Shown piece after piece: positions 6,882 through 43,438 of a stretch of DNA of 43,947 nucleotides (positions are counted from its first letter, which is position 1; each line of letters opens with the position of its first letter). The translations under genes were made by a program, and so were the position numbers. Source of the DNA: a virus; IMG/VR virus record IMGVR_UViG_3300037540_000107, positions 1 to 43,947 of that record. The stretch is one strand, 5' to 3'. Under the pieces are notes generated by a model that was not told the DNA's origin, did no database searches, and was given only the letters and a program-made list of their open reading frames with translations.

Positions 6882-7174
6882 CGTTAGTTAAAGTAAAGCA
6901 TTAGGTTATAGGCTGTTGAGAGGGGGCTTCTTGGGGGGCTCCCTCTTTATCTCCCACCCCATAACAAAGAGCTCTTTAGAAAGAGGGCTCTTACTTTTAA
7001 GCTCCTATAATATATAGAGGCTCTTTATAGAGGGAGCTTATTCTTTTGCTCCTGGGAGAGGAGAAATATTGAAGAGGGGGGTAAGGGGGGTTACAGGGGG
7101 CTCCATATAAGGTGAGTAGCCCCTTTTAGATTTCCCCAATAAATTATGAGATTAAGATTTAGCCTAGATTATTA

Positions 7175-7232
7175 ACAGCTTGTTCCAGAAAGCCTGATTA
7201 ATCTTAACTTTATTTACAGCTTGTTCTAGAAA
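7175..7232 (+). repeat. Direct repeat ACAGCTTGTTCYAGAAA
   Basis: Two copies (7175-7191 and 7216-7232) start 41 bp apart, about four helical turns, just upstream of the late promoter. A reverse copy of the core TTGTTCTAGAA lies near 6697-6708 and a weaker relative (ACAGCCCGTTCTAGA) near 7590. The spacing suggests protein binding sites. Confidence 0.45.
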
Positions 7233-7267
7233 ACTCAATATAAATATAATTATTTTAACTCTAGCCC

Positions 7268-7295
7268 TTGACAAATGAGAATTAATGATTATAGT
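7268..7295 (+). promoter_or_regulatory. Sigma70-like promoter for the late region
   Basis: TTGACA (7268-7273) and TATAGT (7290-7295) are separated by 16 bp: a perfect -35 and a 5-of-6 -10. It is the only good rightward promoter seen upstream of the structural genes, about 490 bp before the first of them. Confidence 0.65.
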
Positions 7296-39816: not shown

Positions 39817-39900
39817 AAGTAAACACTTTAGTTCACCGTTTTCATTAAACAAACAGCACATACTATACAGAAGCGGCTTATCAACACTGTTCTGTTACTT
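39817..39900 (-). other. Possible attC site after cassette 9
   Basis: AAGTAAC directly at the end of the cassette 9 ORF and GTTTACTT 84 bp later could be R'' and R' boxes (reverse complements except for one base). The central part folds poorly, so this right boundary is the least certain of the array. The polymerase ribosome binding site begins about 20 bp further on. Confidence 0.4.
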
Positions 39901-40144
39901 ATTTTGACCTGTTATTACTTTTGCATTTTTGGTTATTGCACTTAAAATCGTAATCATCTGCCGCCTCGGTGCTACAATCAAAACCCTCCATAAAACAACC
40001 ACAAGCGCAACAACGATTTTCCTCCTTGAAGGGCTGTTTCGTAACAGAACCAGCCGCAGCATCAGAATTGCTAAGGCTTGCGTTATTAAAAGCCTCCATG
40101 TATGCCATCACTTTGACTAATTTTCTAATGTCTTTAGTCACCAT
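39899..40144 (-). CDS. Cassette 9: cysteine-containing hypothetical protein
   Basis: An 81-residue protein with CCACGCF, FDCST and FKCNNQKC in its C-terminal half, suggesting a zinc site. ATG at 40144 follows CAGGAG. The upstream junction is a reduced attC site (GATTAGC). Unlike cassettes 1-8, no clear complementary R'' is present downstream. Function unknown. Confidence 0.6.
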   Translation of the reverse strand: MVTKDIRKLVKVMAYMEAFNNASLSNSDAAAGSVTKQPFKEENRCCACGCFMEGFDCSTEAADDYDFKCNNQKCKSNNRSK

Positions 40145-40158
40145 CCGCAATCTCCTGT

Positions 40159-40175
40159 GCTAATCGTTATATTAC
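40159..40175 (-). other. Reduced attC site after cassette 8
   Basis: GTAATATAAC (R'' of cassette 8, the reverse complement of that cassette's first bases) is followed at once by GATTAGC. The L''/L' hairpin found in full sites is missing, leaving 17 bp. Confidence 0.5.
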
Positions 40176-40190
40176 TCAAGAAAAGCCGTA

Positions 40191-40478
40191 TCAATCTGCT
40201 TTGTTCAGCGGCCATCCGCCTTCAAATTGTTCCTTTAGTGCCTCTACTTGTGCGTAGAACATATCAAAACCAGCTTTATTTTTAAAAAATATCATCGTGT
40301 CGGCTCCCTGTTCGTGCAGCAAGTCTCCCTTCTTCACAGTTTCGCAGGGTGTGCCAATCTCTTTCTTGTCTGTTGGTATAAAGCCAAGCCCTATGGCTCC
40401 TTCTACTTCACAACAAGTAGTCACTATTGATCCGTGTCCATACTCAATAATCTTTATGCCGTTTTCAGTCCAAATCAT
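40191..40478 (-). CDS. Cassette 8: hypothetical protein
   Basis: A 95-residue protein (MIWTENGIKIIEYGHGSIVTTCCEVEGAIGLGFIPTD...) with alternating strands and helices. The leader is TTGGAGGTTACATA. The cassette starts G|TTATATTAC and its R'' reads GTAATATAAC. No family recognised; the largest cassette product. Confidence 0.65.
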   Translation of the reverse strand: MIWTENGIKIIEYGHGSIVTTCCEVEGAIGLGFIPTDKKEIGTPCETVKKGDLLHEQGADTMIFFKNKAGFDMFYAQVEALKEQFEGGWPLNKAD

Positions 40479-40513
40479 TATGTAACCTCCAATCTGTTAA
40501 TTTTTCGGCAACC

Positions 40514-40576
40514 GTAATATAACCAGCGCATTAAGCACCGAAAACCAAAGGTTTCGGCTTATGCTGGTCGTTCGGT
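40514..40576 (-). other. attC site after cassette 7
   Basis: A 63-bp site from ACCGAAC (R'') to GTTATATTAC (R' plus start of cassette 8). The inner part folds into an extended hairpin: CCAGC/GCTGG, AAGC/GCTT and CCGAAA/TTTTCGG around AACCTTTGG. This is the clearest attC fold in the array. Confidence 0.8.
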
Positions 40577-40593
40577 TGCTTAAGCTCAAAAAG

Positions 40594-40752
40594 TTATAGT
40601 TTAACTTCTTTCCCATCTTTTATGAGTAACACTTTTAATGTGTTACACTTTTCACAGGTTATAGATACTCCACCAAATACATGCGCTTCTGTTTGCCACG
40701 GCAATACTTTTTGCTGAGTATTTCTTTTACATTTTCCACAATAAAGCCTCAT
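40594..40752 (-). CDS. Cassette 7: small zinc-ribbon protein
   Basis: A 52-residue protein with CGKCKRNT near the start and CEKCNT in the middle: a four-cysteine ribbon. Start at 40752 follows ACGGAGGAAGTTATT. The cassette begins G|TTCGGTGTG and its R'' is ACCGAAC. Unknown function. Confidence 0.65.
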   Translation of the reverse strand: MRLYCGKCKRNTQQKVLPWQTEAHVFGGVSITCEKCNTLKVLLIKDGKEVKL

Positions 40753-40774
40753 AATAACTTCCTCCGTTTCGCAC

Positions 40775-40836
40775 ACCGAACAAGTTGCTCTATCTGAAGC
40801 CCGCTATCGCGGCCTCAGTAAGCTTGTCGTTAGCTG
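40775..40836 (-). other. attC site after cassette 6
   Basis: A 62-bp site from CAGCTAAC (overlapping the TAA of cassette 6) to GTTCGGT. Inverted repeats ACAAG/CTTGT and CTGAGGCCGC/GCGGGCTTCAG surround a GATA loop. The R'' is the exact reverse complement of the first bases of cassette 6. Confidence 0.8.
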
Positions 40837-41030
40837 CTTACTATCTCAAGCCTTGACGCTCCGCAAGTTAAGGCAAAAAACGCTTCTTCTCCATCTTCTC
40901 GCTTTGCATATACTTTGCTTGGTTCAACCTTGGTAATTTCTAACTCATCCCCAAGTTTTGCGAATCCAGGCGCACCCATACCGACAACTTTTACTTTATC
41001 TCCAGGCTTTACAGTTTCAAAATCAATCAT
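40830..41030 (-). CDS. Cassette 6: SH3/KOW-like hypothetical protein
   Basis: A 66-residue protein (VKPGDKVKVVGMGAPGFAKLGDELEITKVEPSKVYAKREDG...) with the small beta-barrel pattern of KOW/SH3-like domains. The leader is TCAAGGAGAAAAAAA. Its stop codon is part of the attC R'' box. Function unknown. Confidence 0.65.
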   Translation of the reverse strand: MIDFETVKPGDKVKVVGMGAPGFAKLGDELEITKVEPSKVYAKREDGEEAFFALTCGASRLEIVSS

Positions 41031-41058
41031 TTTTTTTCTCCTTGATAAGTAGTAAAAA

Positions 41059-41114
41059 CAGCTAACAAGCCGCTCAAGCAGACCTTCGGCAGCTTAGCTA
41101 AATCGTTATAAACC
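41059..41114 (-). other. attC site after cassette 5
   Basis: A 56-bp site from GGTTTATAAC (overlapping the stop of cassette 5) to GTTAGCTG. It carries AACGATTTAGCTAAGC on one side and GCTTGAGCGGCTTGTT on the other. Size, AAC...GTT boundary and paired AGC-AAGC / GCTT-GCT are typical of short attC sites. Confidence 0.8.
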
Positions 41115-41312
41115 TACCAGCTCAATAGCGTTTTCAACTATCTTGTCTAATTCTGTTTGTATTTCTTCCAGCTCCATATTAATTGCACTCAACAGATCAT
41201 CGTGCTGTATTGCTAAGTCGTTGTCAATGGTCGTCATATGCTGCTCTGGTGAGTTATCAATATCATTCCGTAATTTGAGTATTCTGTCTCGAATTGTCGC
41301 CATTCCATCCAT
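41106..41312 (-). CDS. Cassette 5: coiled-coil hypothetical protein
   Basis: A 68-residue protein predicted almost entirely helical (IRDRILKLRNDIDNSPEQH..., INMELEEIQTELDKIVENAI). ATG follows ACCGAAAGG. Its first bases GTTATAAACC are the exact reverse complement of its R'' GGTTTATAAC. Unknown function. Confidence 0.65.
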   Translation of the reverse strand: MDGMATIRDRILKLRNDIDNSPEQHMTTIDNDLAIQHDDLLSAINMELEEIQTELDKIVENAIELVGL

Positions 41313-41318
41313 CCTTTC

Positions 41319-41380
41319 GGTTTATAACCAGTATATTAAGCAGACCTCACAAGGTTCGGCTCCTTATTATGTCGTTCGGT
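41319..41380 (-). other. attC site after cassette 4
   Basis: A 62-bp site from ACCGAAC to GTTATAAACC. TAAG/CTTA and AACCT/AGGT form its stem around TGTG. R'' is complementary to the start of cassette 4 (GTTCGGT), and R' belongs to cassette 5. Confidence 0.75.
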
Positions 41381-41383
41381 TGC

Positions 41384-41587
41384 TTAAAGATTATCAAATA
41401 AGGCTTCGCCACCGTCTTTCTTTGCCCAATAATTTATTGCTTCCGCACAACTTCTACAATACCAAGCCCTTGTACTCTTGTTATAGTAATTCGCGGATTT
41501 GGCCCGTTGGCAAACTGTCCTGTTGCAGTTCTTACCCTTCTTGCCTTTTCCTTTTGTATTTGTTCCAGCTCTAATTGTATTTTCCAT
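41384..41587 (-). CDS. Cassette 4: zinc-binding-like protein
   Basis: A 67-residue basic protein with cysteines spaced C-x5-C (near residue 20) and C-x2-C (WYCRSCAEA near 44), typical of a small zinc finger. The leader is ACGGAGGAAATAA. Unknown function. Confidence 0.65.
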   Translation of the reverse strand: MENTIRAGTNTKGKGKKGKNCNRTVCQRAKSANYYNKSTRAWYCRSCAEAINYWAKKDGGEALFDNL

Positions 41588-41607
41588 TTATTTCCTCCGT
41601 TTCGCAG

Positions 41608-41680
41608 ACCGAACCAGCCGCTTAATTTCGACATTCATCCGCTTCGCTCCTTCTGCGATTTAGCTCAATCGTTATAAACC
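41608..41680 (-). other. attC site after cassette 3
   Basis: A 73-bp site from GGTTTATAAC to GTTCGGT, with inner pairing AGCTAAATCG / CGAAATTAAGCGGCT. R'' matches the start of cassette 3 (GTTATAAAC, exact reverse complement). Confidence 0.75.
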
Positions 41681-41685
41681 TTATA

Positions 41686-41931
41686 TTAATCAGTTGGTGG
41701 CTTCGGTAAAGCATCCATTAATTCAAAAAAGGCGTCCATTTGGTACATTAATGTTTCCCCGCTATCACCATCACCACCGGCTTTCCAGCAAAATGAATCT
41801 CCATAGTCATTAAAATCGTGTCGCATAATAAAATACATTAATTCCTCCGATTTAGGGTGATGGGCTATGCCTTCTTCCCATCTGTCTTGGGTGGTTAAAC
41901 CAAGTTTTTTAGCTTTGTCATAATTATCCAT
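41686..41931 (-). CDS. Cassette 3: acidic hypothetical protein
   Basis: An 81-residue protein (MDNYDKAKKLGLTTQDRWEEGIAHHPKSEEL...) with a Glu/Asp-rich body and the segment AFFELMDALPKPPTD. ATG at 41931 follows ACGGAGTAAATTA. No family recognised. Confidence 0.65.
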   Translation of the reverse strand: MDNYDKAKKLGLTTQDRWEEGIAHHPKSEELMYFIMRHDFNDYGDSFCWKAGGDGDSGETLMYQMDAFFELMDALPKPPTD

Positions 41932-41950
41932 TAATTTACTCCGTTTCAGT

Positions 41951-41992
41951 TTATAACCAGCCGCTAAACTCACAGGCAACTAAAATTCTCAT
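41951..41992 (-). pseudogene. Remnant of a methyltransferase-like gene in a broken cassette
   Basis: Between a reduced attC site and the start of cassette 3 is GGAG, a spacer, then an ATG opening MRILVACEFSGWL and a stop. MRxLVACEFSG is a typical start of a family of phage/bacterial DNA methyltransferase-like proteins. The ORF is cut after 11 such residues and runs into the next junction (CTG|GTTATAAAC). It looks like a 5' fragment of a lost cassette. Confidence 0.45.
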
Positions 41993-42012
41993 AATATTCT
42001 ACTCCGCAGTAA

Positions 42013-42029
42013 ATCTAACATCGTTAGAG
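42013..42029 (-). other. Reduced attC site after cassette 2
   Basis: CTCTAAC (R'' of cassette 2, overlapping its stop) is followed by GAT and then GTTAGAT. Only 17 bp; the internal hairpin is absent. Confidence 0.5.
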
Positions 42030-42245
42030 TTCTTCATGCCCAATCATACCTAAAGTTTTCTTTTCATCGGGTGTCAATTTTAAATTAACTGAAGCAAGTT
42101 GCCCTTCCACCTGCAATCTGGTTCCCCATGAGTTACACTCCTTAACAAACGCCTTGAAAAAGATAGCTTGTTCATCGTCACCAGATTGCGCTAATACCGC
42201 ACCCACATACTCCCAATCAAAGTCTTTTTTTATACCCATTCGCAT
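42024..42245 (-). CDS. Cassette 2: hypothetical protein
   Basis: A 73-residue protein (MRMGIKKDFDWEYVGAVLAQSGDDEQAIFFKAFVKECNSWG...). ATG at 42245 follows CTGGAGGGAATAAA. A longer frame to 42287 would include the attC junction and is rejected. The helical segment with DDEQAIFFKAFVKEC recalls small host-derived proteins that I cannot name with certainty. Confidence 0.65.
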   Translation of the reverse strand: MRMGIKKDFDWEYVGAVLAQSGDDEQAIFFKAFVKECNSWGTRLQVEGQLASVNLKLTPDEKKTLGMIGHEEL

Positions 42246-42259
42246 TTTATTCCCTCCAG

Positions 42260-42280
42260 AATCTAACCAGTTGTTATAAA
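42260..42280 (-). other. Reduced attC site after cassette 1
   Basis: TTTATAAC (R'' of cassette 1), AACTG, then GTTAGATT: 21 bp with no internal hairpin. The sequence ACTG|GTT is the same end as in the full site before cassette 5. Confidence 0.5.
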
Positions 42281-42492
42281 TTATCAAACATGCTCGGTTC
42301 TTCGTTCGCCAATTTTACAAGTTCAACAATCTGCGTCTCTAACTCTGCCACACCTATTACATCACCTTCGATTACATCATCACCGCCAGTATACAGTTTT
42401 ACTGTTCCGCAACCATTTTCCATATTTACAACCATTTCATATCCATCCGGCAATTTCCCACATACCAATTGTGTCATTTCAAAAACAGTCAT
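42274..42492 (-). CDS. Cassette 1: acidic hypothetical protein
   Basis: A 72-residue acidic protein (MTVFEMTQLVCGKLPDGYEMVVNMENGCGTVKLYTGGDD...). The first bases of its cassette (GTTATAAA) are the reverse complement of its R'' (TTTATAAC), which overlaps the stop. The leader is AATAGGTGTGAT. Function unknown; both it and cassette 4 end in FDNL. Confidence 0.65.
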   Translation of the reverse strand: MTVFEMTQLVCGKLPDGYEMVVNMENGCGTVKLYTGGDDVIEGDVIGVAELETQIVELVKLANEEPSMFDNL

Positions 42493-42502
42493 ATCACACC
42501 TA

Positions 42503-43438
42503 TTATTTTTTTTTTTTATAACTCGTTATATTACTTAATGCACCTCTTTCTCCTGTAAAGTAATCAACAACTCTTTTCTTAAGATCCCCGTCTTTCTTAA
42601 AAGGAGCACCCTCCTTTGTACCAGGAACTACCCTCATGGGGAGCTGCTTATAAAGTTCTCTATCTATTTCAGCTATTTCCTTATCAAGTTTATCAACTAC
42701 CTCAAGAGCGAGTGGAGTATTGAAGCTCACGCCATTCATCTCCTGTTGCCCCTGGAGGAGAGCTATAGAATACTCTAACTCTATAGCCTCCTCCCAGTCC
42801 CAACTTTCCCTCTCCTCAGCTAGCTTATCAAACGTTAGCTGCCCAATCAGGGTATCTACTATACATCTAATAAGCATGTTAACTGAGAAGTTGGCCCAAT
42901 CTTCCTCTTTAACCTTCTCCTCCCCAAACCTCAATCCCCAAGCCTCGATAGAATGGCGTTCTTTTGTGCCTTTTGGCACTGGTCTATCTGCCCAAAACAG
43001 ATTAGATAAGGTGAACGTATCTTCGTAACCCTTTGGGTTATACCTTGGATATAACTTTTTCAAAAGTGGGAGATCATGGGAAAATCCATTATGCCAAACC
43101 TGAATATCAACTAGATTTAGTAAGTTAATAAATTCATCTAGCTGCAAAAATACAATTTCCCTAAAGCTCCTTTTAGAATGAGCCTCTAAGAAGAGCTTAT
43201 TAATTAAATAGTTATTATTAATAGTATTAATTATTATCTGCTCATTCTGAAAGGCTCTCTTGTTGTTGAGCTGTATTTCTTTATACCATATTTCAGCTGA
43301 AAAGTCAAGCTTTTTCTTATTTTTATTATTTAAACCAATAAATAGTTTGTTTGTTTCAGCTTCAAACCCCACTATACAGTGGATTTCTGTAGCTTGAAAC
43401 TTAAAACCATTGCTCTCTGAGTCACATACTAGCTGCAT
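42503..43438 (-). CDS. Family A DNA polymerase, N-terminal exonuclease half (split gene)
   Basis: A 311-residue chain with the 3'-5' proofreading domain of a T7-type polymerase and the first part of the polymerase domain. It has Exo I VCDSESNGF (D-x-E) at the N-terminus, Exo II WHNGFSHDLPLL near 115, DTFTLSNLFW, HSIEAWGLRFGE near 163, and ExoIII-like YSIALLQGQQEMNG near 228. Homology runs through VPGTKEGAPFKKDGDLKKRVVDYFTGE, then the frame enters cassette DNA and stops after SYKKKK. The tail after about residue 296 is probably not native. 311+367 residues together approximate the 704 of T7 polymerase. Confidence 0.88.
   Translation of the reverse strand: MQLVCDSESNGFKFQATEIHCIVGFEAETNKLFIGLNNKNKKKLDFSAEIWYKEIQLNNKRAFQNEQIIINTINNNYLINKLFLEAHSKRSFREIVFLQLDEFINLLNLVDIQVWHNGFSHDLPLLKKLYPRYNPKGYEDTFTLSNLFWADRPVPKGTKERHSIEAWGLRFGEEKVKEEDWANFSVNMLIRCIVDTLIGQLTFDKLAEERESWDWEEAIELEYSIALLQGQQEMNGVSFNTPLALEVVDKLDKEIAEIDRELYKQLPMRVVPGTKEGAPFKKDGDLKKRVVDYFTGERGALSNITSYKKKK
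42515..42534 (-). other. Left boundary of the array, reduced attC-like
   Basis: GTAATATAAC, GA, then G|TTATAAA at the end of the exonuclease ORF. AGTAATATAACGA here is repeated exactly at the end of cassette 8. An R''-like box ahead of the first cassette suggests that an earlier cassette was lost at this point. Confidence 0.5.

Follow-up and report, generated by a model that had tools for sequence, protein, structure and literature searches.

Qi et al. 2023 reported clusters of attC sites lacking integron integrases (CALINs) in virulent phages; of six phage attC sites that were tested, five recombined with IntI1 (PMC9892861). The locus described here is an array of attC sites and short genes at positions 39817-42534 of IMG/VR virus record IMGVR_UViG_3300037540_000107; all 43,947 bases of this record were analysed and are called the window below. 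Like phages TJE1, P12002L, and PH101 (Qi et al. 2023, PMC9892861), the window holds attC cassettes with short, mostly uncharacterised genes in a virulent phage that lacks an integrase. An earlier note, made from the letters of the window alone, had considered such an array to be without precedent, which the published phage CALINs contradict; the new part is a phage array in which every gene is antiparallel to attC. The open-access literature searched contained no report of a phage array with all genes in this orientation, subscription papers and preprints lying outside that search. TJE1 and PH101 have the array structure typical of bacteria (PMC9892861), whereas the window combines antiparallel genes, five complete and four degenerate sites, and a location in a replication operon.

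The five complete attC sites, three of them clear by score, fall within 1.2 kb. A search for PF00589 (tyrosine recombinase) in the 43,947-base record, which may be incomplete, gave no match; the intI gene that would characterise a complete integron was thus not found, and the record contains no integron integrase, as the earlier note had stated. The region is very probably a CALIN, i.e., a set of attC sites without an integrase, placed in a podovirus replication operon.

attC sites and cassette ends

Two covariance models were used for the identification of attC sites. R1 was built from 11 sites, two of which (L053 and L054) came from a window-derived pattern, and R2 from nine, namely class 1 cassettes, phage TJE1, Shewanella phage M16-3, and two sites of contig L100; the pattern had picked out this contig but not the two sites. 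Three TJE1 sites were used in the models. When the window was searched on both strands with filters off, the top four R2 matches across the whole 44 kb were four array sites, and all five complete sites lay on the plus strand (Table 1; E-values of both models are rough). At these five sites, R1 and R2 recognise R'' (..AAC) and R' (GTT..) core boxes around pairing L'' and L' arms. R2 found nothing at E<=5 in 354 kb from 28 loci, mostly polymerase relatives of the phage (default filters). In a 389-kb control set including the regions beside 20 bacterial intI genes, it gave 119 matches at E<=0.5; almost all of them had the orientation that the neighbouring intI predicts, and the opposite strand yielded a few, weaker matches at these same sites.

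The covariance models took over from hairpin scorers, because the latter did not separate the sites cleanly from chance (best array site 24.5, against 25.3 for the top chance match in the window and 24.0 for the top shuffle). Folding of the bottom strand, expressed as z relative to shuffles, was -3.0 for s6, -2.8 for s5, -1.4 for s4, -1.0 for s3, and -0.2 for s2; s6 folds better than 200 of 200 shuffles, and s2 no better than its shuffles. The pattern AAGCAACCGAACGAC matched viral contigs 39 times, which we estimate to be not above chance, and nothing in Rfam matched in the window.

A second line of evidence comes from the cassette ends. When a cassette is circular, its own start supplies the R' half of the site, which pairs with its own R''. 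Across the array, the start of each of the eight cassettes c1-c8 matches 6-10 nt of its own end, stemless junctions included, whereas the two arms of each junction, shared by neighbouring cassettes, match over 3-4 nt only. When the ends were permuted, 4 of 40,320 arrangements reached the observed sum, which is also the maximum. This pattern is the mark that an integron integrase leaves when it joins cassettes as circles and, together with the R2 ranks, upholds the multi-cassette array claimed in the earlier note. The same test was less clean in a phage array found elsewhere (G002, described below; 3, 8, 8, and 3 nt), and bacterial arrays vary. Since the complementarity of own ends is symmetric, it gives no orientation.

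The earlier note had also placed attC sites at every junction. This is true of the five complete sites; at the other four junctions only stemless or half sites were found. Stemless junctions have probably lost the hairpin, and several of them are probably frozen.

Orientation of genes and attC sites

Extra-helical bases on the R''-L'' arm direct strand choice, and most sites have, on the top strand, a C adjoining the R' GTT (PMC2727003). In our hands, the extra base was favoured on the R''-L'' arm in ten known sites tested, with a tie for aadA7 in the second scoring. Read on the plus strand, the five complete sites of the window carry the extra base on this arm (s2 tied with zero offset), and all five have C before GTT, where the minus reading has G or T. 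Both R1 and R2 assign the five sites to the plus strand as well. The minus strand, on which the earlier note had proposed to look for them, is therefore replaced by plus on all three grounds.

The genes run the other way. Positions 39899-42492 hold nine minus-strand open reading frames (ORFs) of 52-95 aa, all in one direction, as first noted. According to a codon score trained on the larger genes of the same phage, these ORFs reach 0.22-0.40 bits per codon (chunks of real phage genes average 0.38 and antisense -0.28), while the longest plus-strand ORFs across the same spans score between -0.38 and +0.02. By this measure all nine resemble coding sequence of the phage, which the antisense ORFs do not. 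Most are preceded by a ribosome-binding site.

Judging from these features, the canonical attC strand is plus while the nine genes are on minus, which makes all of them antiparallel. In a cassette, the gene is usually, though not of strict necessity, co-directional with attC. Indeed, among 14 bacterial integrons examined as a control, 62 of 65 scorable cassettes (direction judged by the longest ORF) were co-directional with attC and three were antiparallel, whereas in the window nine of nine genes run against it.

Apart from c4, no convincing relatives of the ORFs were found in family, phage, and plasmid searches; the cassette proteins matched no phage and gave three weak matches only among plasmids. 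The number of cassettes is eight or nine, c9 being the doubtful one, and neither an attC nor an attI site was found at the polymerase-side end of the array. A leader pattern common to c4 and c7 had no viral match. Two further details concern the array's edges and junctions. At window positions 41954-42000, within the degenerate c2/c3 junction, the short minus-strand reading MRILVACEFSGWL, which we take to resemble the start of a known gene family, is cut off. Positions 42523-42538, at the exonuclease-side boundary, repeat 15 of 16 bases of the c8 end (40164-40179), as if a cassette with c8-type ends might once have stood first.

Table 1. Features of the array and of the flanking polymerase parts (window coordinates)
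Feature	Position	Strand	Evidence
Exonuclease part of split family A DNA polymerase, 311 aa	42503-43438	-	phrog_17 DNA polymerase E 2e-27; comparison with relatives
Stemless attC remnant TTATAAC-TC-GTTATAT, exonuclease-side array end	42516-42531	+	direct reading; own-end match of c1
Cassette ORF c1, 72 aa, no function assigned	42274-42492	-	codon score 0.40; own ends match 8 nt
Stemless attC remnant ATCTAAC-CAGTT-GTTATAA, c1/c2 junction	42261-42279	+	direct reading; weak model match on both strands
Cassette ORF c2, 73 aa, no function assigned	42024-42245	-	codon score 0.36; own ends match 6 nt
Degenerate c2/c3 junction: left half attC 41951-41969, stemless remnant 42013-42029, short gene-start fragment between	41951-42029	+	direct reading
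Cassette ORF c3, 81 aa, no function assigned	41686-41931	-	codon score 0.39; own ends match 9 nt
Complete attC s2, c3/c4 junction	41608-41677	+	R2 16.1 bits, E 0.15, rank 3; R1 E 0.004
Cassette ORF c4, 67 aa, cysteine-containing, phrog_13772-like	41384-41587	-	PHROG E 3.8e-10; own ends match 7 nt
Complete attC s3, c4/c5 junction	41322-41380	+	R2 12.1 bits, E 1.5, rank 4; R1 E 1; cassette-end complementarity
Cassette ORF c5, 68 aa, no function assigned	41106-41312	-	codon score 0.36; own ends match 10 nt
Complete attC s4, c5/c6 junction	41060-41111	+	R2 31.1 bits, E 2.8e-5, rank 1; R1 E 1.2e-6; extra base on left arm
Cassette ORF c6, 66 aa, no function assigned	40830-41030	-	codon score 0.39; own ends match 8 nt
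Complete attC s5, c6/c7 junction	40775-40835	+	R2 11.5 bits, E 2, rank 7; R1 E 7; cassette-end complementarity
Cassette ORF c7, 52 aa, zinc-ribbon-like cysteine pairs	40594-40752	-	codon score 0.22; own ends match 7 nt
Complete attC s6, c7/c8 junction	40517-40576	+	R2 19.4 bits, E 0.023, rank 2; R1 E 0.003; extra base on left arm
Cassette ORF c8, 95 aa, no function assigned	40191-40478	-	codon score 0.29; own ends match 10 nt
Right half attC, c8/c9 junction	40159-40172	+	direct reading
ORF c9, 81 aa, final gene of the array; uncertain whether a cassette	39899-40144	-	codon score 0.32; half attC on one side only
Polymerase part of split family A DNA polymerase, 367 aa	38682-39785	-	PF00476 E 1.1e-25

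The polymerase junction and attC sites in other phages

The record has a podovirus gene set (terminase, head-tail adaptor, major head protein, internal virion protein, primase/helicase, ribonucleotide reductase, and exonuclease). The genes of the array are co-directional with the replication operon and sit, as the earlier note had it, between two parts of the DNA polymerase, a split family A enzyme with its exonuclease part on one side of the array and its polymerase part on the other (PF00476 and phrog_17 matches in Table 1); homology of the exonuclease part stops near 42556. The same note had treated this position as special to the array and had suggested looking at the locus in related phages. 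Among the polymerase relatives, the two parts are contiguous in L005, L060, L063, L066, and L067, whereas in L003, L058, L059, L061, L062, and L064 the junction is filled by assorted small genes (an HNH-like gene in L064), and the covariance-model search gave no attC match in any of these relatives. The position is thus not special to the array. Relatives hold other, unrelated small genes at this junction, so the array makes use of a cargo site that was already there, and division of the gene need not have been its doing; the view that polA was split by the array was dropped after this comparison. In two relatives, insertions lie inside the polymerase domain itself (L065 4165-4434 and L071 1340-2631, the latter with an ORF inside); these are possibly self-splicing introns.

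attC sites were also found in other viral genomes. G002 (IMGVR_UViG_3300033145_000258; L100 8108-8168, 11742-13143) has six, with ORFs co-directional with attC, and five of the six follow directly after ERF and YqaJ recombination genes. In G001 (IMGVR_UViG_3300020171_000027; L099 9366-9427), one clear attC lies beyond a YqaJ-like and SSB-like gene pair, again with co-directional genes. G006 (IMGVR_UViG_3300019764_000003; L112) was found through its capsid gene, which is 55% identical to that of the window phage. It carries an attC at 7186-7271 on the minus strand (R2 E 1.3e-5) amid plus-strand early genes, and a second, weak site at 6920-6989 whose support is a 10-nt end complementarity only. 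The layout in G006 is the same antiparallel one, at another place in the genome. The closer capsid relatives G430-G433, three of which are fragments of 12-19 kb, contained no attC, and an attC-like match in G437 (E 0.12) was discarded when a second scorer gave it no support.

Origin of the array and comparison with known systems

It appears likeliest that the cassettes were loaded by a host integrase. An integron integrase supplied by the infected host and acting in trans would excise cassettes as circles, which would then be inserted at sites of phage DNA, adding or swapping small genes. The genes would be expressed from the replication transcript of the phage through their own ribosome-binding sites and not from the integron promoter (Pc). 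With genes opposed to attC, these cassettes would face Pc in antisense if they stood in an ordinary integron, and only the phage would read them in the sense direction. The bottom strand, the recombinogenic one, coincides with the coding strand; provided that replication forks move in the direction of transcription, it would also be the lagging-strand template and hence more often single-stranded. We offer this placement as a hypothesis; in Vibrio, inversion of a chromosomal array that put the bottom strand on the lagging-strand template strongly raised excision (PMC11023631). A further reaching proposal, less likely than not, is a phage-adapted class of cassettes with genes against attC, silent in a bacterial integron and expressed in phage replication operons, through which lytic phages may use the host integrase as a gene-loading device with sites on the strand that is most often single-stranded.

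Several observations weigh against reading the locus as a CALIN loaded by a host integrase. Sites s3 (41322-41380) and s5 (40775-40835) are not significant by score and are level with the best chance matches elsewhere in the window, so that the case for them is made by their position, their strand, and the cassette ends. Of the junctions, four are degenerate. No attI was recognised by eye in the record (no attI model was run), and neither an attI-like entry site nor an empty site was identified. No second phage was found with the same cassettes in another order, which leaves exchange after capture hypothetical. No cassette was found in a bacterial integron. Finally, the record is a metagenome assembly rather than an isolate.

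Under one alternative, a single illegitimate recombination brought in the entire array from a chromosomal integron of the host; the array has only decayed since, and the phage never exchanges cassettes. The missing integrase, the stemless or half sites, and the failure to find the cassettes in other phages agree with such an event. Nonetheless, it is a doubtful explanation: an ordinary host array is an unlikely source because all nine genes are antiparallel, compared with 62 of 65 co-directional bacterial cassettes, and the codon scores resemble those of the phage's own genes.

The cassettes might instead come from an uncultured bacterial integron lineage whose genes normally run against attC and which the phage merely sampled. 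A degenerate attC pattern found two viral contigs and no credible bacterial genome, and for this reason the source integron would be an unsampled one; the antiparallel layout of G006 also fits. Against this, cassettes of the 14 sampled bacterial integrons are nearly all co-directional, and what is reversed in the 'reverse' integrons of Treponema is their integrase gene (PMC3607928); we regard such a lineage as rather unlikely. In genomes of GTDB, the degenerate pattern had two matches, neither in a genome with an integrase above the family cut-off, and these were treated as chance. As a separate observation, 72 of 398 sampled genomes in the phylum of G031 have an integron integrase above the curated cut-off.

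That the locus is no integron at all and consists of ordinary phage cargo split by chance hairpins or terminators is highly improbable, since this view, despite the degenerate sites, the weak single-strand folding of three of five sites, and the ordinary cargo at the same junction in related phages, is largely contradicted by the end complementarity and R2 ranks, and runs counter to the model ranks on a single strand, the absence of such matches from relatives, and the extra-base geometry.

Returning to loading by a host integrase, the fully reversed array and the same layout in a capsid relative suggest a rule instead of a stray capture, and the array suggests that the integron enzymes of bacteria are able to equip such viruses with small genes. 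If this is true, integrons and lytic phages draw on one gene pool, and host integron integrases shape phage genomes. The idea of strand placement can be tested by existing recombination assays.

Among the known systems, sedentary chromosomal integrons and bacterial CALINs share with the window the attC geometry (R'', L'' with the extra base, L', and R') and the complementarity of cassette ends; the window differs from them in having no intI, no recognised attI, and antiparallel genes. The 'reverse' integrons of Treponema (PMC3607928, PMC4909258) resemble it in having an unusual relative orientation, although in Treponema the integrase gene shares the direction of the cassette genes, whereas in the window the cassette genes point against attC. 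The split-polA cargo hotspot of the six relatives offers the same junction filled with small genes in the operon direction, but differs from the window in that it holds no attC sites.

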